A program made the translations under genes and the position numbers. The notes below the pieces were generated by a model. That model saw only the letters and a program-made list of their open reading frames with translations. It made no database searches and was not told the origin of the DNA. 64,000 nucleotides of DNA from the NCBI RefSeq assembly GCF_001955655.1, contig NZ_MSPW01000002.1:124001-188000 (forward strand), in the 5' to 3' direction. Positions within the stretch are counted from its first letter, which is position 1, and each line of letters opens with the position of its first letter. This DNA is from Viridibacillus arenosi (GTDB lineage: Bacteria; Bacillota; Bacilli; Bacillales_A; Planococcaceae). Positions 17,093 to 49,580 of the stretch are shown here, in pieces.

Positions 17093-17806
17093 ATGACATA
17101 TAAAATACTTGTAGTAGAAGATGAAATTTCAATAGCAACATTATTACAATACAATCTCCAACAGGCAGGATATGAAGTTGTAATTGCAAATGATGGGAAA
17201 GACGGCTTACACAAAGCAATTTTGGAAAAGCCGGATTTACTATTGTTAGACTTAATGTTACCTAAAATGGACGGCATGGAAGTTTGCAAAGAGCTACGTA
17301 TTAAAAAAATTAATACACCAATTATTATGTTAACAGCAAAAGACGATGAGTTTGATAAAGTACTTGGTCTTGAGCTTGGAGCAGATGATTATATGACAAA
17401 GCCATTCAGTCCACGTGAAGTAATGGCAAGGGTTAAAGCGGTATTACGCCGTTCTAAAGTGACAGAAGTAGTGAAGGAAGAAGAAGAGCATATTGAACAA
17501 ACATATTCATTTGGACAACTGCAAGTACTCCCTGATCGGTTTGAAGCTTTTTTAGGAGAGGAAGTGTTAGAATTCACTCCAAAAGAATTTGAACTACTTG
17601 TCTATTTATTAGAAAATAAAAATCGTGTGTTAACACGCGATCAGTTATTAAGTGCTGTATGGAATTATGATTTTGCAGGAGATACGCGGATTGTTGATGT
17701 GCACATTAGCCACTTACGTGAACAAATTGAAGAAAATAGTCGCAAACCAAAATTCATTAAAACAATAAGAGGTTTAGGCTATAAATTTGAGGAGCCGAAG
17801 CTATGA
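17093..17806 (+). CDS. phoP: Phosphate response regulator PhoP
   Basis: A 237-aa OmpR-family regulator. The receiver has the acidic pair E9-D10, phosphoacceptor D53 in LLDLMLPKMDG, a switch Thr in MLTAKDD and the Lys of MTKPFSPRE. The winged helix follows, with GDTRIVDVHISHLREQIE and TIRGLGYKFE. Identity as PhoP rests on overlap with phoR and the mdh-phoPR-polA order. The ATG at 17093 is used; the longer in-frame start at 17003 would run into the preceding gene. Confidence 0.95.
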   Translation: MTYKILVVEDEISIATLLQYNLQQAGYEVVIANDGKDGLHKAILEKPDLLLLDLMLPKMDGMEVCKELRIKKINTPIIMLTAKDDEFDKVLGLELGADDYMTKPFSPREVMARVKAVLRRSKVTEVVKEEEEHIEQTYSFGQLQVLPDRFEAFLGEEVLEFTPKEFELLVYLLENKNRVLTRDQLLSAVWNYDFAGDTRIVDVHISHLREQIEENSRKPKFIKTIRGLGYKFEEPKL

Positions 17807-35815: not shown

Positions 35816-37273
35816 TTGAAAATGAAACAGTTTTTACTTGCACTTGTTTGCATGACAGTAATTTGTTCTATTAGTATAACAACATTTGCAGAGGAAAATT
35901 TAGAGCCAGCTAACCCAGATAGTACAACTGAATGGGATAAAGAAGAAAAAGCACCATATAAAATGAATGCTAGGGTACAGTCCGCTGAGCCGGTAATTGC
36001 TGATATTTCGAAATGGCAATATTCAATTGATTGGGCAACAGCTAGTAAAGTGCTAGATTTAGCGATTATTCGTACTCAATATGGTAGTGGTTTGGAAGAT
36101 ACATATCATAAAATATATGAAGCAGGAGCATTGCAATACGGTGTGCCATTCGGTGTATATTCATATAGTGTAGCTAGATCTACTGCAGCAGCGAGAATTG
36201 AAGCAAATACTTTTTATGATCGTGCCAATAAAAACGCAAAATTTTATGTAATTGATATTGAAGAAACAGCAACTGATGGAGAAAGTGTACGTGATATCAT
36301 CAATGCTTATGTAGCAGAATTACGTAAGAAAACAGATAAGAAAATAGGCGTCTACATTGCTCATCATTTATACAATCAATTAAATATTGATACATCAAAA
36401 TTTGATTTTGTGTGGATACCTAGATACAGCAATACCAATACACCACCGGATTATGAGTATCACTTATGGCAATATACGGACCAAGGAAAAGTGGCTGGAA
36501 TTAATACAAATGTAGATTTAAATAGATTAAATCCAAATGTGTCATTAGATTTCTTTACAAAAGATAGTAGCGAAAATAATAAACCTATTGATCTATCAAA
36601 TTACTATACTAAGAACCCTAAAAAAGTTGCTATAAGAAAAAAAGTGAACCAATACAATAATAAAAATTTCACTACTTCACGAAAAACAGGTTCATTAAGC
36701 AAAAATACAATTGTTGAAGTAAAAGGTATGGATTACTCTAGTAAAGGAATTCCAAGATTGATGTTAGCTAATGGGATGTATATTACAGCTAGTAAAAGCT
36801 ATGTCACAAAATTAATTTCAAATATTGACGATTATTATACGGCTGTTCCAAAGAATGTCGTTCTAAAGAAAGCAGTAAGAACTTATAGCAGTACAAGTTT
36901 TACAGCTGCTAAAGAAGTATCTAAGATAAATAAAGATAAGATTGTTAGTATTGCGGATATTGATTATACAACGGGTGGTGCACCACGTTTGAAGACCACT
37001 TCGGGAACCTATATAACTGCAAATAAAAAGTATGTATTAAAAACGACAGCGAAAATTTCGAATTATATTACTGTTAAACCTAGTAAAGTAAAAACAGTAA
37101 AGAAAATTTATCAATATAAAAGTACTTCCTTAACTACTGCAAATAGAGATATAGCAATAGCAAAAGGGAAATCATTAAAAGTATCTGCTATTGTCTATAC
37201 AAATGGTGGTACACCAAGATTAAAATTATCAAATGGCTACTATATAACTGCTAATAAAAAATACGTGCAGTAA
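35816..37273 (+). CDS. Secreted GH25 lysozyme-like protein with three C-terminal wall-type repeats (paralogue A)
   Basis: A 485-aa protein with a signal peptide (about 1-25, cleavage near TTFAEE). A GH25 domain follows (about 60-245): VIADISKWQ supplies the first catalytic Asp, FYVIDIEE the DxE pair, and HLWQYTDQG the strand before the last conserved Asp. Three repeats of about 70 aa (about 262-330, 338-407, 414-485) share YYT..PKKV...YQY...T, TPRLKL.NG.YITANKKYV and resemble DUF5776. It probably cleaves peptidoglycan outside the cell. TTG 35816 fits the AAGGGG spacing (9 nt) better than ATG 35822. It is followed by a close paralogue. Confidence 0.85.
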   Translation: MKMKQFLLALVCMTVICSISITTFAEENLEPANPDSTTEWDKEEKAPYKMNARVQSAEPVIADISKWQYSIDWATASKVLDLAIIRTQYGSGLEDTYHKIYEAGALQYGVPFGVYSYSVARSTAAARIEANTFYDRANKNAKFYVIDIEETATDGESVRDIINAYVAELRKKTDKKIGVYIAHHLYNQLNIDTSKFDFVWIPRYSNTNTPPDYEYHLWQYTDQGKVAGINTNVDLNRLNPNVSLDFFTKDSSENNKPIDLSNYYTKNPKKVAIRKKVNQYNNKNFTTSRKTGSLSKNTIVEVKGMDYSSKGIPRLMLANGMYITASKSYVTKLISNIDDYYTAVPKNVVLKKAVRTYSSTSFTAAKEVSKINKDKIVSIADIDYTTGGAPRLKTTSGTYITANKKYVLKTTAKISNYITVKPSKVKTVKKIYQYKSTSLTTANRDIAIAKGKSLKVSAIVYTNGGTPRLKLSNGYYITANKKYVQ

Positions 37274-37288
37274 TAGTAGATAGGAGAA

Positions 37289-37330
37289 AACAATGGATGG
37301 GAAGTCTAGCTCCCATTCATTGTTTTTCTT
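37289..37330 (+). terminator. Terminator between the GH25 paralogues
   Basis: AACAATG and TGGGA pair with TCCCA and CATTGTT, followed by TTTTCTTTT. Each paralogue is therefore probably its own transcription unit. Confidence 0.85.
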
Positions 37331-37534
37331 TTATTTTCATTTTTGATTTGTGGAATATAACATTTTGCAACTGCTGTGATATATAACTGTTAGAGGAATT
37401 TAAAGTTCGTAAAGGAAATGATTTGAAGTTGTGTTCAATTTGTTATATAGACTTTGTTATGCTTATGTAGGCTATTACTAGATTGTTTCAAACATATTGA
37501 AATAGCAATAAAATACATAAGGAGATACATAAAT

Positions 37535-38995
37535 ATGAAAAGACTGCGTTACATGACAGCACTATTATGTTTAGTCGCTGTGAGTTTTTTTGCCGTGCAA
37601 ATTGCTTCGGCAGATGAATTGAGACCTGCTAATCCAGATAGCAAAACAAAGTGGGAAACCGAACCTGAATTGAAAGCCAATTCCACTATGAGCTTACGCT
37701 CTGCAGAGCCGGTTATTGCAGATATTTCTAAATGGCAAGGGACTATTGATTGGGCAACAGCAAGTAAGAATTTAGATCTTGTTATTATTCGCACACAATA
37801 CGGTTCAATCTTAGAGGATATTAAACATAAGGAATATGAAGCTGGTGCTCTCAAATACGGCGTACCTTTTGGAGTATATTCATATAGCCTAGCAGAATCT
37901 ACTGCGGATGCGAAAGAAGAGGCAAATTCTTTTTACAACCGCGCTAGTAAAGATGCTAAATTTTATGTATTAGATGTTGAAGAAAATACGAGTAAATCAG
38001 GCGAAAGTATGCGTACAATTATCAATGCATACGTGAAGCAACTGCGTACTAAAACAGATAAAAAGATAGGTGTATACATTGCGCACCATTTATATGAAGA
38101 TTTAAATATTGATACAACGAAATTTGATTTTGTGTGGATTCCACGTTACAACAATACGAATACTGCCCCAGCTTATAATTATAATTTATGGCAATATACA
38201 GATAAGGGAATCGTACCTGGTATTTCAACCTATGTAGATCTAAATCGTTTAAACCCAAATACGCCACTGCATTTCTTTACTGAAGAAGCTGATGCTGAAA
38301 CAGCGGGGAATGATGATTATTATACAACTAACCCCAAAAAAGTAGTTGTTAAGAAAACAGTTTATCAATACAGTTCGCCAAGTTTTTCCACTGGAAATAA
38401 AGGAGCGGCATTGAAAAAGAATTCTATAGTGTCAGTTTCAGGAATCGTGAATACTGCAAATGGAACTCCACGATTAAAATTAACAAATGGTCAATATATT
38501 TCGGCAAATAAAAAATTTGTTCAAAAAGTAACAAGTAAAATTGATCAATACTACACAACGGTGCCAAAAAATATTGTCGTGAAAAAAGGGTTAAATGCAT
38601 ATAAGAGTGTAAATCTTACAACTAGTAATAAAATATCAGGTGTCAAAAAAAATACTATCTTAACTATTAAAGATATTGAATATACGAAGAATGGTACACC
38701 GAGATTAAAAACGACATCGGGTTCATATATCACTGCGAATAAAGATTATGTATTGAAATTACCTACTAACTATTATGATTACTGGACGATTAACCCTGGC
38801 CAAGTGAAAATTGCTAAGAAAGTCTACCAATATAAAGGTACTTCTTTCACTACTGCTAATAGAGGGAAAGCAATTGCAGTAGGATCTACTGTCAAAGTAA
38901 GTAGTATTGCATATGGAACAAATGGTACACCACGATTAAAATTAACGAATGGTTATTATATTACAGCGAAGAAAACTTATGTAAAAGCAAAATAA
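37535..38995 (+). CDS. Secreted GH25 lysozyme-like protein with three C-terminal wall-type repeats (paralogue B)
   Basis: A 486-aa protein with the same architecture as its upstream neighbour: signal peptide (about 1-27, near IASADEL), the linker PANPDS, a GH25 domain (about 60-245; VIADISKWQGTIDW, FYVLDVEEN, HLYEDLNIDTTKFDFVWIP shortened here to its ends) and three DUF5776-like repeats (about 260-328, 337-402, 412-486). The ATG at 37535 follows AAGGAG; the longer start at 37454 has no RBS. The two genes are a tandem duplication with diverged signal peptides and repeats, suggesting separate expression or substrate tuning. Confidence 0.86.
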   Translation: MKRLRYMTALLCLVAVSFFAVQIASADELRPANPDSKTKWETEPELKANSTMSLRSAEPVIADISKWQGTIDWATASKNLDLVIIRTQYGSILEDIKHKEYEAGALKYGVPFGVYSYSLAESTADAKEEANSFYNRASKDAKFYVLDVEENTSKSGESMRTIINAYVKQLRTKTDKKIGVYIAHHLYEDLNIDTTKFDFVWIPRYNNTNTAPAYNYNLWQYTDKGIVPGISTYVDLNRLNPNTPLHFFTEEADAETAGNDDYYTTNPKKVVVKKTVYQYSSPSFSTGNKGAALKKNSIVSVSGIVNTANGTPRLKLTNGQYISANKKFVQKVTSKIDQYYTTVPKNIVVKKGLNAYKSVNLTTSNKISGVKKNTILTIKDIEYTKNGTPRLKTTSGSYITANKDYVLKLPTNYYDYWTINPGQVKIAKKVYQYKGTSFTTANRGKAIAVGSTVKVSSIAYGTNGTPRLKLTNGYYITAKKTYVKAK

Positions 38996-42932: not shown

Positions 42933-42977
42933 AAGGATAGGTAAGGCAAAGAGTATTTGCCTTACCTATCTTTTTTT
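42933..42977 (+). terminator. argF terminator
   Basis: A perfect stem GATAGGTAAGGCAAA / TTTGCCTTACCTATC around GAGTA, followed by seven T residues. Confidence 0.94.
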
Positions 42978-43005
42978 GTTTCAGGATGGGTTAAGGGATT
43001 GTATT

Positions 43006-43064
43006 AATAAAATACAGTATTCTGTAACATTCACGTAACAGACTTGGCTTAGTCTAGTCCAAGA
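43006..43064 (+). pseudogene. Relic of a histidine-kinase 3' end plus conserved spacer (or shared regulatory block)
   Basis: In frame, codons from 43006 read NKIQYSVTFT-stop, matching NSKLEFFVTFV-stop at the end of the kinase gene at 46129. The nucleotides after both stops also match (CATTC..GTAACA, then GGCTTAGTCTA against GGTTAGTCTAA). No upstream kinase sequence survives, so this is at most a ten-codon remnant. The same block can also be read as an 11-bp-spaced direct repeat GTAAC (43024, 43035). Confidence 0.45.
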
Positions 43065-43179
43065 TAGCTTTTCGGGGTATAGAAAATAGAATTAAATTGC
43101 GGATAGCATTCAAAACTGTTAACTCTGAATAGACCATGATTAGAAGCTAATAATTCCAAGTTAGAATGGTAGTGTAAAA

Positions 43180-44016
43180 GTGAAAAGGATAATTATTAAT
43201 ATCATAAAATGGCTAATTATATTAAGTATAGTTGTGGCGGGAATGGTTATATATTCATTTAAAATAGAACCGAAACGCCTTGTTACAAAGGAGTATGAAC
43301 TTGAACTTACGTCAGGAGGAGAAAGTTCGCTAAGGGTAGTGCAATTTTCGGATGTACATTTAGGTCCGAATTATTCGCTAGAGCAGCTTGAGAAGCTTGT
43401 AGTGAAAATTAACGGACTTCAACCTGATGTAATAGCTTTTACTGGAGATTTAATGGATGTACCATCTCAATTTGAAGACAGGTCAAAAATAAGTGCGATT
43501 TTGGGTAAACTAAGTAGTAAATATGGAAATTATGCAGTATGGGGAAACCATGACCGTGGAGGCGGTGGAGTCAGGTTTTATGAAGATATAATGAATACCT
43601 CTGGATTTAAGCTACTAACAAATGAAAGTAGTACAATAGAGCTTGAAAATGGAAAGATAGTAAATATTATAGGGTTGGATGAAGCAATGCTTGGAAATCC
43701 TGATATTCCAAAAGCGTATTCAGGTACTAGTAATCAGGGAATGAATCTCCTTATACTACATCAGCCTGACCTTATAGAAGACGTAGGGTATGACAATATT
43801 GATGTAGCACTTGCAGGACATAGTCATGGAGGACAAGTTGATGTGCCATTGATTGGTCCTATATATACGCCCCCTCTTGCAGAGAAATACACTAAAGGGT
43901 TATACGAGCTTGGCATTCATAAGTATCTATATGTAAATAGTGGAATCGGAACGACGAGGATTCCAGTTCGGTTTTGGAATCCTGCAGAAATATCGGTGTT
44001 TAACATAACTCTATGA
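43180..44016 (+). CDS. Membrane-anchored metallophosphoesterase (YkuE/YaeI type)
   Basis: A 278-aa calcineurin-like phosphoesterase with an N-terminal membrane anchor (about residues 5-26) that places the domain outside the membrane or tethers it there. All five metal/catalytic blocks are present: SDVHLG, GDLMD, GNHD, LHQPD and GHSHGGQVD. The family includes YkuE and UDP-diacylglucosamine-type hydrolases; the substrate is not known. The GTG start has only a weak RBS. Codon use (AGA/AGG, ATA) matches the three genes downstream and differs from argF, so it belongs to the accessory block. Confidence 0.88.
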   Translation: MKRIIINIIKWLIILSIVVAGMVIYSFKIEPKRLVTKEYELELTSGGESSLRVVQFSDVHLGPNYSLEQLEKLVVKINGLQPDVIAFTGDLMDVPSQFEDRSKISAILGKLSSKYGNYAVWGNHDRGGGGVRFYEDIMNTSGFKLLTNESSTIELENGKIVNIIGLDEAMLGNPDIPKAYSGTSNQGMNLLILHQPDLIEDVGYDNIDVALAGHSHGGQVDVPLIGPIYTPPLAEKYTKGLYELGIHKYLYVNSGIGTTRIPVRFWNPAEISVFNITL

Positions 44017-44033
44017 AATGAATATAAAATGTA

Positions 44034-44083
44034 AAGCTTCAAATAATGTCCCCGTCCCCTGGATTGTGCATTATTTGGCGCTT
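44034..44083. repeat. Short inverted-repeat element with a GTCCCCGTCCCC loop
   Basis: AAGCTTCAAATAATG (44034-44048) and CATTATTTGGCGCTT (44069-44083) are inverted repeats with 13 of 15 matches. The loop contains TGTCCCCGTCCCCTGG, far more GC-rich than its surroundings and like the ends of REP/MITE-type elements seen in Firmicutes. No T-tract terminator follows. Confidence 0.55.
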
Positions 44084-44118
44084 CCCTTTATATTTGTAAT
44101 CGGAAAGGAGAGCAGAAA

Positions 44119-44766
44119 ATGAATATTCTAATTGCCGATGATGAACAGCATATGGTTAAAATACTTTCAGCCTATTTAAAAGATGAAGGCTTCAATATTC
44201 TAGAGGCAAGGGATGGACAGGAAGCATTGGAGATTTTTGAAACAACTAAGATTGAATTGGCAATTTTAGATTGGATGATGCCTAAAATTGATGGAATAGA
44301 GGCATGTAAATATATAAAGGAAAACAGTCAAACAAAAGTTCTAATACTAACAGCAAAAGGTCAAAATGAAGACGAATTACACGCTTTCCATGGTGGAGCA
44401 GATGAATACATAAAGAAACCATTTGATCCACGAATATTAATATTAAGAATAAAAAAGCTATTAAATATGAGTGAAGAAATAAAAGTGAAAGATATTCTGA
44501 TCAAAGAGAACGAAAAGAAAGCATATAAACAAAAAGAACCTATCCAACTAACAAAAATAGAATATGATTTATTGCTTATCTTTATAAAAAATAGAGGTGT
44601 GATTTTATCGAGGGATAAGTTGATTGATTTAGTTTGGGGCTTGGATTATGAGGGAGATCATAGAACTGTAGATACTCATATCAGAAGATTAAGAACTAAA
44701 ATTGGGGATGACCTGATTAAAACCTATAGAGGCATTGGATACTGCCTGGAGGTGAAGGAAGATTAA
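44119..44766 (+). CDS. OmpR-family response regulator
   Basis: A 215-aa regulator. The receiver (about 1-115) has acidic D7-D8, phosphoacceptor D51 in LDWMMPKIDG, LTAKGQNED with the switch Thr, and KKPFDPR with the conserved Lys. The C-terminal winged helix has GDHRTVDTHIRRLRTKIG and YRGIGYCLE. AAAGGAGAG precedes the ATG. The stop overlaps the likely ATT start of the kinase. The target genes are unknown; the flanking phosphoesterase and glycosidase genes are candidates. AGA-rich codon use suggests acquisition by transfer. Confidence 0.92.
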   Translation: MNILIADDEQHMVKILSAYLKDEGFNILEARDGQEALEIFETTKIELAILDWMMPKIDGIEACKYIKENSQTKVLILTAKGQNEDELHAFHGGADEYIKKPFDPRILILRIKKLLNMSEEIKVKDILIKENEKKAYKQKEPIQLTKIEYDLLLIFIKNRGVILSRDKLIDLVWGLDYEGDHRTVDTHIRRLRTKIGDDLIKTYRGIGYCLEVKED

Positions 44767-46129
44767 AATTAGGAACAAGTTTTCCATTGGTATATCATCC
44801 GTTGTAATTTGCATCTTTATATTCTCAATACTTGCGAATATATTTTTGGTAGACAGATATTACATTCATGAGCAAAGAAAGATTTTGGATAAGGCGGCAA
44901 GCGATATACTCAAGGTGTCTAATAAGACCATTTTAATTGATTTGAATGAGATAGAAGAGAAATACGCTATAACTATTGTCTATTCAGAAGCAAGTGGAAG
45001 TTTGGATCAAATTAATGAAAGAATGATTCTGGAGTTTGAAAAGAAAAAAATAAAGCTAAATAAATTTTGGCTTACTGAACAAACGTTGGATAAGTTGCAG
45101 GAAAAAAGCGTTAATAAGATATACGACCAAGGGGTAAGTAAATATAAAGTTTTGACTAAATTTATGAAAATAGATAATTATATAATCGCTATTGGATTGC
45201 CGTTGCCACATATGGAAGATACTATTTCTATAATAAATAGATTTAATATTGTTTTGATGTCCATTTCTGTCATTTTTATTGTCTTTTTAGTAGTGATGAT
45301 ATCCAAAAAAATCACAAGACCATTAGAATCTTTGAAAAATTTATCTCAAGATATTGCCAATTTAAATTTTAGGAAAGAAGAGATAATGACAAATGATGAA
45401 GTAGGAGAACTAGCAAAAAGTATAAACATTATGAGTGGGAAATTAGAAAAAGCCCATGAGGAAATTAATAGTCAAAATAAGCGTTTGAAAGAACTAATGT
45501 CAGATATATCCCATGAGTTGAAAACGCCACTATCATTAGTGAAAATATATGAACAAGGAATTTCGGACGGTCTGGATGACGGTACTTACAGAGACACCAT
45601 TGAAGAACAGATTGAAAAAATGAATGCACTAATAGAGAAGCTATTATTTTGGACAGCGTTAGAGAATGGTTCATTAAACAAATCTATTTTTGATATTGGA
45701 AAAATAATTATTGAAATGACAAAGAAGTACAAGCTAATCCTACAGGAATACGATATTAATTTATCCTTAAGTATTGATGAGAGCAAAGAATATTTGATTC
45801 AAGCTGAAAAAGAAGGAATTGATATTGTACTCGATAATTTAATTACCAATGCTATTAAATATTCCTATGATAAGAATATTGAAATTCATTTAACGAAAAA
45901 CAACAATGCAGTGAAGCTTACGATTGCTAATGGAATAGGGGAAATGAATGAAAATGATTTAGAAAATATTTGGAGACCCTTTTATGTACTTGAAAAATCA
46001 AGAAGTAAGGAGCTTTCAGGAACAGGGTTGGGCTTACCTATCATCAAGACAATTTTAGATAATCACAATTTGGATTATGGATTTGAATTGAAAAATAGTA
46101 AGTTAGAGTTTTTTGTCACATTCGTGTAA
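44762..46129 (+). CDS. Membrane histidine kinase (probable ATT start)
   Basis: A 455-aa kinase if started at ATT 44762. TM1 (about 9-30), an extracytoplasmic sensor of about 120 aa, TM2 (about 160-181), HAMP, HisKA with H251 in SDISHELKTP, HATPase with NLITNAIKYS and a G box GTGLGLPIIK. No ATG, GTG or TTG lies in frame between the upstream stop (44753) and TTG 44846, and starting at 44846 would delete TM1. GGAGG (44748-44752) lies 9 nt before the ATT, and the ATT overlaps the regulator stop (GATTAA). The sensor has no recognised fold. Confidence 0.85.
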   Translation: MKIRNKFSIGISSVVICIFIFSILANIFLVDRYYIHEQRKILDKAASDILKVSNKTILIDLNEIEEKYAITIVYSEASGSLDQINERMILEFEKKKIKLNKFWLTEQTLDKLQEKSVNKIYDQGVSKYKVLTKFMKIDNYIIAIGLPLPHMEDTISIINRFNIVLMSISVIFIVFLVVMISKKITRPLESLKNLSQDIANLNFRKEEIMTNDEVGELAKSINIMSGKLEKAHEEINSQNKRLKELMSDISHELKTPLSLVKIYEQGISDGLDDGTYRDTIEEQIEKMNALIEKLLFWTALENGSLNKSIFDIGKIIIEMTKKYKLILQEYDINLSLSIDESKEYLIQAEKEGIDIVLDNLITNAIKYSYDKNIEIHLTKNNNAVKLTIANGIGEMNENDLENIWRPFYVLEKSRSKELSGTGLGLPIIKTILDNHNLDYGFELKNSKLEFFVTFV

Positions 46130-46166
46130 CAAGCCTAGGTTAGTCTAAGACTAGGAGGTGCGATAC

Positions 46167-48473
46167 ATGAAAAAAATAATATCTATCGTGTTAATTGTAG
46201 TCCTTGCTACTAGTGTTCTTACAGGATGTGTTGGCAACGAAAAAAGGCCAAGCAAAGAGGTCTACACGCAAAAAGATAATTTAGATTTTAACTTTAGTGT
46301 AGATCCTGAAACCTTTACGTTTGAGGTGGAATCCAATGGAACTACGGAGAAGGCTTCAGAACCATTGGAGAAAATGAAAGTTTCAAATTTAAAAGACGAT
46401 GGGGATAACATTAGCTGGACCTATGCAGAGCAGAATCTAGATATAGATATCGAAAAGAAAGATAAGTATGTTGATATTACTGTCAAATCCAATAAAGATG
46501 AAGAAAATATGTTTTCTTGGCCAAAAGTGAAAGGTAATGGATACTTACTCCCATTAAATCAAGGAAAGTACATTCCAAGCGATGATTCAGTTTGGAAATA
46601 CTATCTAAATGAAGAAAAAATGAAAGTGATTGAATCTTTCTCCATGCAGTTTTTTGCAGTTGATAAAGATGAATATTCGTTAGTATATATTATTAAAAAC
46701 CCCTACAATAATGAAATTGCTTTTGATACAAAAAAAAACATAGAGTTTACTTTTAATCATGAGTTTCCATCTATCAATCAACAGAAGGAATATGGTTTTA
46801 GAATTTATTTAACGAAAAAAAATCCAGTACATGTTGCCAAAACTTATAAAAATTATTTAATTGAGCAAGGTGACTTTAAATCTTTAAAGGAAAAGGCTGA
46901 AGAAAATAATAATATTGAAAAACTTTATGGTGCCCCTCATATTTATTTTTGGGACAGAACTGTAATTTCAGAAGAAAATATACAATGGGCAAAATTGAAA
47001 AGTAGTTTCCCCGATAAGTTGAAATTATGGATTCAGGAGTTATTAGCTACTAAAGTTGAAGATGGGGCAGAGCTTGCAGCCGCATATGAGGATTTAAATA
47101 ATTACGATTACGTAGACAAATATACTAAAAATAGAATAGTAAAAAGCCTAAGTGCTGTCATGCAACTAAAAGAATTCTATAATACGGAAGTATTTACTAA
47201 AGAGGATAAAGAAATTCAAAAGCTAATAAATAAGAAAATAGACAAATTAAATCCAGTAGAATTAATTGAACTTAATAAGAGATTATTAAAAAGCGAGCTT
47301 GGTAACGTAGTGGACCCAATAGAAAAGTGGGCAGATGCAAATACTATAGATGTCATAAAAGATATGAAGCATTCAGGGTTAGCGAATTTATGGATAGGTT
47401 TAGATGACTGGCAAGAAGGGTTTATTAAACCAGAGTTAGTAATAGAAGCAGAGAATCAGGGATATTTAATCGGCACTTACGATTCGTATCATTCAATCCA
47501 TGAACCAGGTAAAGAGCAGTGGGAAACGGCTAAGTTTAAGGATACTTCATTGTTTGAAGAAGCAACGGTAACGAATAAAGATGGAAGAAAAATTGAAGGA
47601 TTTCAAGGCGTAGGTAGAAAGTTGAATCCGACATTAGCAATGCCGAGTGTGAAAGAAAGAGTAACGTCAATTTTAAATACTGGTTTACCATTTAACTCAT
47701 GGTTTTTAGATACAGATGGCACTGGAGAAATCTTTGATGACTACTCACCAGAACATACTACTACTGAAGCGGAGGATGTCCAAGCTCGAATTAAGAGAAT
47801 GGAGTATCTACAAAAAGAATGGGGAATGGTAGTCGGAACTGAGGGCGGTAATGATTTTGCTAACAAAACGATTGCTTTTGCACATGGAATAGAAACTCCC
47901 TCATTTTCCTGGATGGATGAGGATATGGGCAAAAATAAAGAGAGTAATTATTATGTAGGAAGATACTATTCAAGTACTGGCGGAGTCCCTGAGCTATTTT
48001 CTAAACAAATACCAGTGAAGGATAAATATAAGAAACTATTTTTGGATTCAAACTATACCATACCGTTATATAAATTAGTTTACAATAACTCTGTAATCAC
48101 GACTTATTGGTGGGGATGGGGAACACTAAAAATAGCAGATGAAATTGAAAATAGAATGTTGTATGAAGTACTTTACAATGTACCTCCTCTTTATCACATT
48201 GATAAATACGAGTGGAAAAAGTACAAAGATACAATAATAAACCATTCTAAAGTGTGGTCAAGTTTCAGCAAAAAGGCAATAAAGGAAGAAATGACAGATT
48301 ATAAAATTCTATCAGATGACAGATTAGTCCAAATGACTGAATATGGTAAATCATTAAGCGTGGTAGCAAATTTCTCTGAAAGTGAATTTGCTGTTCAAGG
48401 TGAGAAAGTACCTGGGAAATCAGTGTTAATCATTGATGGAAATAGTAAAACCATTTATACACCAGAGAAGTAA
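46167..48473 (+). CDS. GH101/GH129-related glycoside hydrolase lipoprotein
   Basis: A 768-aa lipoprotein with signal peptide and lipobox LTGC (Cys about residue 22). The N-terminal half is a beta-rich domain. The C-terminal half has features of the GH129/GH101-like group: LANLWIGLDDWQEG, GTYDSYHS, WFLDTDGTGE (D515, D517) and VVGTEGGNDF (E559), plausible nucleophile and acid/base carboxylates. Known relatives act on alpha-linked GalNAc; the substrate here is unknown. The ATG at 46167 follows AGGAGG; the GTG at 46158 overlaps that RBS. It is 37 nt downstream of the kinase and probably co-transcribed or co-regulated. Confidence 0.75.
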   Translation: MKKIISIVLIVVLATSVLTGCVGNEKRPSKEVYTQKDNLDFNFSVDPETFTFEVESNGTTEKASEPLEKMKVSNLKDDGDNISWTYAEQNLDIDIEKKDKYVDITVKSNKDEENMFSWPKVKGNGYLLPLNQGKYIPSDDSVWKYYLNEEKMKVIESFSMQFFAVDKDEYSLVYIIKNPYNNEIAFDTKKNIEFTFNHEFPSINQQKEYGFRIYLTKKNPVHVAKTYKNYLIEQGDFKSLKEKAEENNNIEKLYGAPHIYFWDRTVISEENIQWAKLKSSFPDKLKLWIQELLATKVEDGAELAAAYEDLNNYDYVDKYTKNRIVKSLSAVMQLKEFYNTEVFTKEDKEIQKLINKKIDKLNPVELIELNKRLLKSELGNVVDPIEKWADANTIDVIKDMKHSGLANLWIGLDDWQEGFIKPELVIEAENQGYLIGTYDSYHSIHEPGKEQWETAKFKDTSLFEEATVTNKDGRKIEGFQGVGRKLNPTLAMPSVKERVTSILNTGLPFNSWFLDTDGTGEIFDDYSPEHTTTEAEDVQARIKRMEYLQKEWGMVVGTEGGNDFANKTIAFAHGIETPSFSWMDEDMGKNKESNYYVGRYYSSTGGVPELFSKQIPVKDKYKKLFLDSNYTIPLYKLVYNNSVITTYWWGWGTLKIADEIENRMLYEVLYNVPPLYHIDKYEWKKYKDTIINHSKVWSSFSKKAIKEEMTDYKILSDDRLVQMTEYGKSLSVVANFSESEFAVQGEKVPGKSVLIIDGNSKTIYTPEK

Positions 48474-48540
48474 GTGTAAAATAAAGTGTATTGTAACCAA
48501 TCAATTTAAGGTGAAGACTATTCTTGCCAAAACATATTTA

Positions 48541-48577
48541 ATCCCCACCTGAAAGATGAACAGGTGGGGATAATTTT
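48541..48577. terminator. Terminator between the glycosidase and BASS transporter genes
   Basis: A perfect 11-bp stem ATCCCCACCTG / CAGGTGGGGAT with a 9-nt loop, followed by AATTTT on the plus strand. It can serve both convergent genes. Confidence 0.85.
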
Positions 48578-48605: not shown

Positions 48606-49580
48606 TTATGCTTTTTGTGTAACCGTGGAAGTAGCCTTCTCAACCTCAACTTGATCTACAGGGCGTTTTGACCAATATGTTGCAAGAATTGGTCCGGAGA
48701 TATTATGCCATACAGCACCGAATGTACTTGGTAAGGCAGCTAGTGGACCAAAGTGTGCTGCAGCAAGTGCTACACCTAATCCAGAGTTTTGCATACCAAC
48801 TTCAATAGAAATGGCACGTTGGTCTTGTAAAGAAAGGCCACATAATTTCCCTGCATAGTAACCTAATAATAAACCTGCTCCGTTGTGTAAAAATACAGCA
48901 AAGAATACTAGTAAACCAGCAGAAGCGATTTTATCTTGGTTACCTGAAACTACTGCAGATACTATAATAATGATAGCGAAAACGGAAATTAAAGGCACAA
49001 TTGAAATACTTTTATCAACGATAGTTGGCAAGAATTTGCGAACAAGTATACCAAGTGCGATCGGAACGATAATAACTTGGATAATAGACATAAACATAGA
49101 TTTTGCATCTACAGGCATCCATTGACCAGCTAATAACAATAATAATAATGGTGTCAAAATAGGTGCAAGTAATGTAGAGACAGAAGTCATTGTAATCGAT
49201 AAAGGCACGTTACCTTTTGCTAAATACACCATAACATTAGAAGCAGTACCACCTGGAACAGAACCTAGTAATACAAGACCCGCAGCTAGTTCTGAAGGTA
49301 ATTGCAAAATGTAAGCGATCGCAAGTGCTGTAAGTGGCATAATCGTAAACTGTGCTACGATTCCGATGAGTACGGGTAATGGTTTTGTCAAAACGAGTTT
49401 AAAATCATTAGCCTTAAGTGTAAGTCCCATTCCAAACATAACGACTCCAAGTAATATCGTAATATATTGGCCGAATCCTAAAAAAGGTGTAGGTGCTAAA
49501 TAAGCTATTACGGCAATCAGCATTACCCACAGAGCAAAGTATTTTCCGATAAATGTGCTAAACGTTTCAAGTATTTTCAT
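48606..49580 (-). CDS. Bile acid:sodium symporter (BASS) family transporter
   Basis: A 324-aa protein with nine to ten membrane segments. Its conserved BASS features are GMGLTLKANDF, VLLGSVPGGTASNVM and the unwound-helix motif EVGMQNSGLGVALAAAHFG, including the Na+-site Glu and Gln-Asn. It is close to B. subtilis YocS. Known bacterial substrates include pantoate and related acids; the substrate here is unknown. A minus-strand AAAGGATG RBS lies ahead of the ATG. It marks the right edge of the accessory block, with core-like codon use. Confidence 0.9.
   Translation of the reverse strand: MKILETFSTFIGKYFALWVMLIAVIAYLAPTPFLGFGQYITILLGVVMFGMGLTLKANDFKLVLTKPLPVLIGIVAQFTIMPLTALAIAYILQLPSELAAGLVLLGSVPGGTASNVMVYLAKGNVPLSITMTSVSTLLAPILTPLLLLLLAGQWMPVDAKSMFMSIIQVIIVPIALGILVRKFLPTIVDKSISIVPLISVFAIIIIVSAVVSGNQDKIASAGLLVFFAVFLHNGAGLLLGYYAGKLCGLSLQDQRAISIEVGMQNSGLGVALAAAHFGPLAALPSTFGAVWHNISGPILATYWSKRPVDQVEVEKATSTVTQKA

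Follow-up and report, generated by a model that had tools for sequence, protein, structure and literature searches.

Mobile sensor-regulator pairs that drive adjacent envelope effectors are known from VanRS- and BceRS-type modules. The block of four genes described here appears to work like these modules. It lies in a stretch of 64,000 nucleotides from the soil bacterium Viridibacillus arenosi (contig NZ_MSPW01000002.1, forward-strand positions 124,001 to 188,000). This whole stretch is called the window, and positions are counted from its first letter. The block encodes a phosphoesterase (PE), a response regulator (RR), a histidine kinase (HK) and a glycosidase lipoprotein of the GH129 type. 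RR and HK form a two-component system (TCS), of which the glycosidase and the phosphoesterase are the presumed effectors. A domain search of the block gave no exporter or D-Ala-D-Lac genes, unlike VanRS- and BceRS-type modules.

The module is probably an envelope two-component system of a known type; what is new is a shared box in front of both PE and GH129. By title and abstract, the unit is not described among the literature matches listed, a set whose coverage leaves out most subscription papers. Our preferred reading, held with moderate confidence, is a mobile envelope-remodelling module with exchangeable effectors, acting on the cell's own glycopolymers.

Two described enzymes are closest to the glycosidase. 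One is NagBb, the GH129 alpha-N-acetylgalactosaminidase of Bifidobacterium bifidum (5WZN), in which we take Glu478 to be one of the catalytic pair. In the available text of PMC5698469, Asp435 is a catalytic residue of NagBb, and DagB retains only this one of the pair. DagB, or ZgGH129, is a 3,6-anhydro-D-galactosidase of Zobellia (5OPQ/8RZK), which belongs to a carrageenan regulon, unlike the window enzyme. The window enzyme also differs from NagBb in being a lipoprotein that adjoins a TCS.

The lipoprotein scores 388.8 bits against PF11308, where the curated cut-off is 25.6. Its AlphaFold2 model (predicted local distance difference test, pLDDT, 81; stretch 570-617 of low confidence) consists of a beta-sandwich, a barrel and a C-terminal beta domain, with Z 24-28 across residues 39-768. 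ZgGH129 is the best structural match (Z 27.8). NagBb shares the fold at Z 24.5, with a root-mean-square deviation (rmsd) of 4.3 over 502 aligned positions and 15-19% identity in structural alignments. The next fold comes at Z 17.1.

In a profile alignment, D515 and E559 lie opposite D435 and E478 of NagBb. Both residues are invariant across 29 aligned sequences, one of them partial; this alignment (A1) excluded split and some near-duplicate sequences (G032, G185, G535, G536, G441). Judged by model and alignment, the window enzyme keeps the GH129 fold and both NagBb catalytic residues. The preliminary description had called it GH129-like, and this holds. GH101 is more distant (Z 15.6, rmsd 6.4, the same level as unrelated barrels) and was set aside as a family, and no GH101 model is among the Pfam matches of the block proteins up to E 1.

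A kept fold and catalytic dyad would also suit glycan foraging, in which an alpha-linked glycan from outside the cell (host, plant or microbial) is sensed and broken down as a nutrient. The characterised GH129 and GH129-like homologues from Bifidobacterium and Zobellia are catabolic, as far as the available text of PMC5698469 and PMC8106489 goes. Foraging is nevertheless unlikely. No sugar importer or catabolic gene was recognised in the block or in the scanned part of its flanks. At five other four-gene loci, the six flanking genes scanned are of catalase, glyoxalase, MutS, nuclease and antiporter families, with one unmatched. In the genomes labelled g40, an ABC transporter stands a few kb upstream of GH129 (one locus scanned), but its binding protein is of the SBP_bac_3 type, not a sugar type. 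We take SBP_bac_3 to be the amino-acid type. Also, the same box and kinase family stand with envelope genes. Of the surface-glycan unit first proposed, the transfer and the recurrence as one unit are supported, and the shared box backs its predicted induction through the kinase. Foraging-type degradation is less well supported, as the families of other genes with this box or kinase family (LCP, MBOAT-DHHW, GH73, MurG-like, VanZ) point by name to the cell's own envelope.

Among the closest described regulatory systems is WalRK (VicRK), which like the window has an OmpR-type regulator and a similar box. In the available text of PMC4168254 this VicR/WalR box is TGTWAHA-N4-TGTWAHA. The window element spans 33 bp and reads TGTMACA-TTCR-YGTAACA, nine bases, TAGTCT; that is, a direct repeat, TGTMACATTCRYGTAACA, and then TAGTCT. 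Relative to TGTWAH-N5-TGTWAH each window site is off by one base, and the GH129 sites of G166, G189 and G200 are perfect. The repeat spacing and a second half-site over the -35 region suit an OmpR-type activator.

This box is absent from 100 of 100 shuffles of the window, and there is no third box in the window with up to 2 mismatches allowed. The V. arenosi genome holds two perfect copies only, both at the PE and GH129 promoters. A looser search of the same genome gave three 2-mismatch sites versus 2 for the control, which are regarded as chance. A general sigma-70 promoter scan showed no excess (36 promoter-like matches versus 37.9 in shuffles). Kinase-driven induction of both the lipoprotein and the phosphoesterase had been suggested before the box was found, and a shared predicted box at precisely these two promoters fits that suggestion well.

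Might the box simply belong to the WalRK regulon, with the local TCS incidental? Its architecture fits the published consensus (PMC4168254, in its available text), WalR is encoded in the genome, and the genomes labelled g8 hold box and GH129 without a close TCS relative. On the other side, the spacer has TT in 36 of 36 tallied sites (partly imposed by the pattern), although published work gives the spacer of the WalR box as not conserved. All 10 family genomes that bear the TCS also have the box. The two perfect genome copies come from a narrow pattern; the broad consensus was not searched, so they are no measure of a WalR regulon. Identity of the RR to WalR of the same genome is 42%, versus 52-54% to RRs that adjoin related kinases in other genera. 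The RR lacks the longer linker of WalR, is accessory and mobile, and scores 153 bits on the YycF equivalog model (cut-off 340; own WalR 459), which puts it outside the WalR subfamily. All told, a WalRK regulon is quite unlikely.

As a side observation, the genome's second-best match to the WalR model (280 bits) lies in the same window at 17102-17803. It is followed by a 515-aa open reading frame (ORF), and by position we presume this to be a PhoPR pair.

Within the family, the exact box pattern occurs at 19 sites, spread over 11 of the 261 genomes, and its reversal at none. In 17 chosen genomes, a search that tolerated up to 2 mismatches gave 42 sites versus 2 for the reversed pattern. Reading the surroundings assigned 36 of the 42: 16 before GH129, 10 before PE, three each before MBOAT-DHHW and GH5-like lipoprotein genes, two before LCP, and one each before a GH73-RR-HK operon and an RR-HK pair. 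One of the three GH5-like targets (G042) is a shortened ORF only. Since the pattern was derived from GH129 and PE loci, the LCP, MBOAT, GH5-like, GH73 and TCS sites are independent evidence. The switch then appears constant and the effector exchangeable. The box-bearing MBOATs are 88% alike across three genera (G200, G259, G057), versus 47-55% for other MBOATs.

There is a complication. Positions 46114-46131 of the second box cover the last HK codons and the stop (GTC ACA TTC GTG TAA), and this arrangement has left traces elsewhere. In 7 of the 9 GH129 loci with a box but no nearby TCS, a kinase-tail relic lies just upstream (E 2e-10 to 1e-32 for a query from which the box had been removed). 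The other two, L004 and L061, have no such relic upstream, and none was detected upstream of box 1 in the window.

A more sober explanation is that these are unremarkable accessory genes of low expression that form no functional unit, and whose box is kept through the HK coding sequence and through shared descent. The overlap with HK codons favours it, as do the relics by orphan GH129 genes, which indicate shared descent. It would leave unexplained why the box also stands before PE, MBOAT, GH5-like and GH73 genes without a kinase tail. Among 18 box sites that are neither GH129 nor LCP, 15 have no tail, two have a clear one (MBOAT of G200, PE of G260) and one, the MBOAT site of G057, has a doubtful 17-base match (tail query without the box, E <= 0.05). 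Motif information over 18 positions is 28.1 bits for the 15 tail-free sites versus 28.9 for all 36, for sites chosen by a pattern that itself contained the TA..T part. In addition, the four-gene set occurs in three genera of the family, and RR-HK-GH129 beyond the family. A lack of functional unity is very unlikely.

Two genomes carry arrays of such tails. The order in G200 is PE-RR-HK-box-LCP, kinase tail-box-MBOAT-DHHW, kinase tail-box-GH129, so that the LCP and MBOAT-DHHW genes stand between HK and GH129. In G125 it is a broken kinase with box, then PE-RR-HK-box-LCP-kinase tail-box. Each thus has three kinase-tail/operator copies: one intact kinase and two relics in G200, and an intact kinase, a broken kinase and a relic in G125. 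The copies of tail, box and leader are 76-85% alike within arrays and up to 92% between the two. The LCP-kinase tail arrangement is common to both, so the arrays go back in part to a single history rather than to many separate events.

It is tempting, but only tentatively so, to see the operator in the kinase 3' end as part of a portable landing pad. Duplication and recombination of the kinase tail with its operator could swap GH129, LCP and MBOAT-DHHW effectors under one sensor, and so assort wall-modifying enzymes among Gram-positive genera.

Two further observations concern these copies. In V. soli (L048, 6485-6830, oriented with GH129 on the plus strand), a decayed kinase tail, a box and a GH129 fragment lie upstream of PE, and together they read as the relic of an earlier tandem copy. 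In L140 (G125), the second, broken kinase stands near a groEL-like gene and has an integrase-like gene next to it; downstream of the array come transposase-like genes, all named by likeness. These are possible vehicles of movement.

The kinase family can also be followed without the box. At E <= 1e-12, a profile of the HK N-terminus (A3, 13 sequences) finds relatives in 17 of the 398 genomes of the class. Eleven of these loci were newly compared, 5 had been compared already and G433 was left out. GH129 is present in 9 of the 17, versus 0.9 expected (p 1.5e-8, phylogeny not controlled). Neighbours were named by Pfam for 18 representative proteins and by likeness for the rest. A MurG-like glycosyltransferase and a Polysacc_synt_2 protein stand beside RR-HK in 5 of the 11 new loci (L163, L165, L166, L168, L170). 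Two loci have a GH5-like lipoprotein, one of them together with MBOAT-DHHW and the other together with a short MBOAT-like remnant. GH73, PE, and a sulfatase-family protein with VanZ are found in one locus each, and L171 has no clear envelope partner. G046 has the order PE (divergent), box, GH5-like lipoprotein, GH73, RR, HK. By its gene content it repeats the set of PE, surface glycosidase and related TCS, with a different predicted glycosidase family. Beyond their Pfam names, LCP, MBOAT-DHHW, GH73 and VanZ presumably serve the cell's own envelope.

Mobility, effector exchange and kinase-regulator control are also what one would expect of antibiotic detoxification. Here GH129 and PE would alter a glycosylated or phosphorylated wall antibiotic or bacteriocin, with HK as its VanS- or BceS-like sensor, and VanZ-family genes do adjoin GH129 or TCS in other genera. 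But no drug-specific gene was seen, and the LCP, MBOAT, GH73 and MurG-like partners suit wall remodelling at least equally. We consider detoxification improbable. Against NCBIfam models, RR and HK fall outside VanR and VanS (vanR_ACDEGLN 164 bits, cut-off 350; VanS 115, cut-off 400), which bears on family membership and not on a likeness in function, and BceR and BceS models are absent among the best 25 matches per block protein. Anti-phage defence was dropped, as PADLOC gave two weak matches, to RR alone.

How often does the block recur? GH129 (E <= 0.001) is found in 15 of the 261 genomes of the family and in 22 of the 398 of the class, own genome included; an order-level search gave a tally and list identical to the family level. 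Neighbourhoods were compared for 32 other genomes (34 loci, as L002 and L003 repeat the genomes of L047 and L048), which with the window makes 33. Five of the 22 GH129-positive class genomes, with weak or broken matches, had no neighbourhood (G329, G393, G521, G539, G607). The preliminary description asked whether the four genes co-occur elsewhere, and they do: 9 of the 33 genomes, from three genera, have all four in one locus, which amounts to 9 of the 261 in the family. Four further genomes of the class sample have RR-HK-GH129 without a detected PE, and 20 have GH129 without this TCS nearby. The TCS itself (E <= 1e-90) is in 10 of 261 family genomes, 9 of which also have GH129. In G185 (L060) GH129 is split across two ORFs and so probably broken.

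With argF as the sole yardstick, GH129 identity to the window is above that of argF in several genomes: 81% versus 58% in Paenibacillus macquariensis, 79% versus 58% in Bacillus sp. FJAT-28004, 72% versus 55% in G413, and 77-79% versus 58-60% in G190, G166 and G189. On these identities, GH129 has moved between families.

The transfer first suggested for the block is further borne out by its codons, compared over the 52 window ORFs that reach 100 aa, 48 from the flanks and 4 from the block. AGA and AGG make up 35 of 42 arginine codons in the block versus 140 of 740 in the flanks (Fisher p 6e-18), and ATA 65 of 169 isoleucine codons versus 205 of 1281 (p 8e-11), as the preliminary description had noticed. 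GC content is 0.327 versus 0.377. At third codon positions (GC3) it is 0.279 versus 0.259, hence not lower in the block. In overall codon divergence the block ranks third among 49 four-gene runs; the two higher runs overlap one another and owe their rank mainly to genes that hardly use AGA/AGG (AGR) or ATA. The arginine and isoleucine signature is therefore real, and the whole-table divergence high but not unique, so it was set aside as a mark of the block.

The four genes are co-directional and lie between argF and a BASS transporter gene, as they do in all three Viridibacillus genomes (Table 1). The argF terminator is indeed found on the left, as predicted. Of the strong terminator proposed on the right, the hairpin is real, but it has a weak T-tract, stands between convergent genes and has a loop of 9, beyond the limit of the terminator scanner.

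Table 1 Features of the block and its borders, in window positions.
Feature	Position	Strand	Evidence
argF, left neighbour	end 42876		
argF terminator, left border of block	42933-42973	+	z -7.1
Predicted operator/promoter 1, before PE-RR-HK: TGTAACA-TTCA-CGTAACA, 9-bp gap, -10-like TAGTCT	43023-43055	+	pattern search
Block: PE, RR, HK, GH129-type lipoprotein	43180-48473	+	
PE, membrane-anchored calcineurin-like metallophosphoesterase (YaeI/LpxG-like), 278 aa	43180-44016	+	PF00149 3.7e-10
Hairpin between PE and RR	44036-44083		z -3.1
RR, OmpR-family response regulator, short linker, 215 aa	44119-44766	+	PF00072, PF00486
HK, two-transmembrane sensor histidine kinase with HAMP	44762-46129 (probable start; listed 44846-46129)	+	domain search, alignment
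Predicted operator/promoter 2, before GH129: TGTCACA-TTCG-TGTAACA, -10-like TAGTCT	46114-46146	+	pattern search
GH129-type glycosidase, lipoprotein signal LTGC, 768 aa	46167-48473 (listed from 46158; ATG 46167)	+	PF11308 2.3e-116
Terminator-like hairpin between convergent GH129 and BASS genes, weak T-tract	48541-48571	not assigned	z -4.8
BASS transporter, right neighbour	48606-49580	-	

The hairpin between PE and RR contains TGTCCCCGTCCCC and has a single copy in the window. It could be an RR-HK attenuator or a small repeat insertion. A few kb from the block, at 35816-38995, two adjacent GH25-DUF5776 genes are low in GC and high in AGR (0.62 and 0.41). They are possibly a second foreign pair, of cell-wall hydrolases.

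PE begins with a single hydrophobic helix, and its sequence shows the motifs SDVHLG, GDLMD, GNHD and GHSH; its matches to the NCBIfam LpxG and YaeI models are below cut-off.

The ORF list starts HK at TTG 44846, which removes the first transmembrane helix (TM1). Conserved residues, TM1 included, start at ATT 44762, the only plausible start in the window, which overlaps the RR stop (44762-44766, ATTAA). The same codon is ATT in 9 of 10 clade sequences (window included) and ATC in one. Of four distant relatives, three (two near-identical) have an ATG one codon further upstream. HK probably starts at this conserved non-canonical ATT.

The extracellular domain of HK is modelled as alpha/beta (pLDDT 79), with LNxFW and QxxxK invariant across the 13 aligned sequences. 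Against known ligand domains, the best sequence match (E 0.07) is not convincing and the best fold match stays at E 0.047, which is no proof that the domain stands apart from them. Weak likenesses to ParS, CitA and DcuS were not used.

Several facts weigh against the preferred reading. No Trp of the window enzyme aligns with Trp398 of NagBb, as the position falls in an alignment gap; this residue is the platform for N-acetylgalactosamine in the available text of PMC8106489. Box 2 overlaps the HK coding sequence, so conservation of the GH129 box is partly coding. The box matches at GH129 and PE are not independent, 4 of the 10 independent sites carry 2 mismatches, and 6 of the 42 sites have no clear envelope target (two after kinase-tail copies of G125, four others). 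The association of sensor and GH129 is confounded by phylogeny. LNxFW[ILV] was found in no more than 5 of the 11 further kinase loci, so this motif marks part of the sensor family.

Transfer has its exceptions as well. In the g8 genomes and G127, GH129 is 79-80% identical versus 78-83% for argF, and with no excess the transfer claim does not extend to them. The six g8 genomes keep GH129 and box, with no close TCS relative found (E <= 1e-90); a more distant relative is present in two of the six, G030 and G046. In g40 (10 loci), GH129 comes directly after PadR and VanZ-family genes, named by Pfam on one representative of each, and not after this TCS.

If the preferred reading of an envelope-remodelling module is right, HK would sense an envelope state or ligand through its extracytoplasmic alpha/beta domain and phosphorylate RR. 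RR would then bind the 11-bp-spaced direct repeat that overlaps the -35 region of the two promoters. Promoter 1 would drive PE-RR-HK, a positive autoregulation, and promoter 2, within the last HK codons, would drive the GH129 lipoprotein. The tethered glycosidase may remove alpha-linked sugar from a glycopolymer of the cell itself, in the wall or linked to lipid, while the presumed task of PE is to hydrolyse a membrane phosphoester.

The GH129-type enzymes characterised so far degrade glycans of hosts or algae. In the window, such an enzyme appears to be a regulated, surface-tethered effector of a two-component system, and relatives of this system stand beside wall-polymer enzymes. If true, this would point to a trimming of self-glycans in Gram-positive envelopes that is not yet described. 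The named operator could then serve to read out which ligand the sensor detects, and the module would be an example of effectors exchanged under a single conserved sensor.

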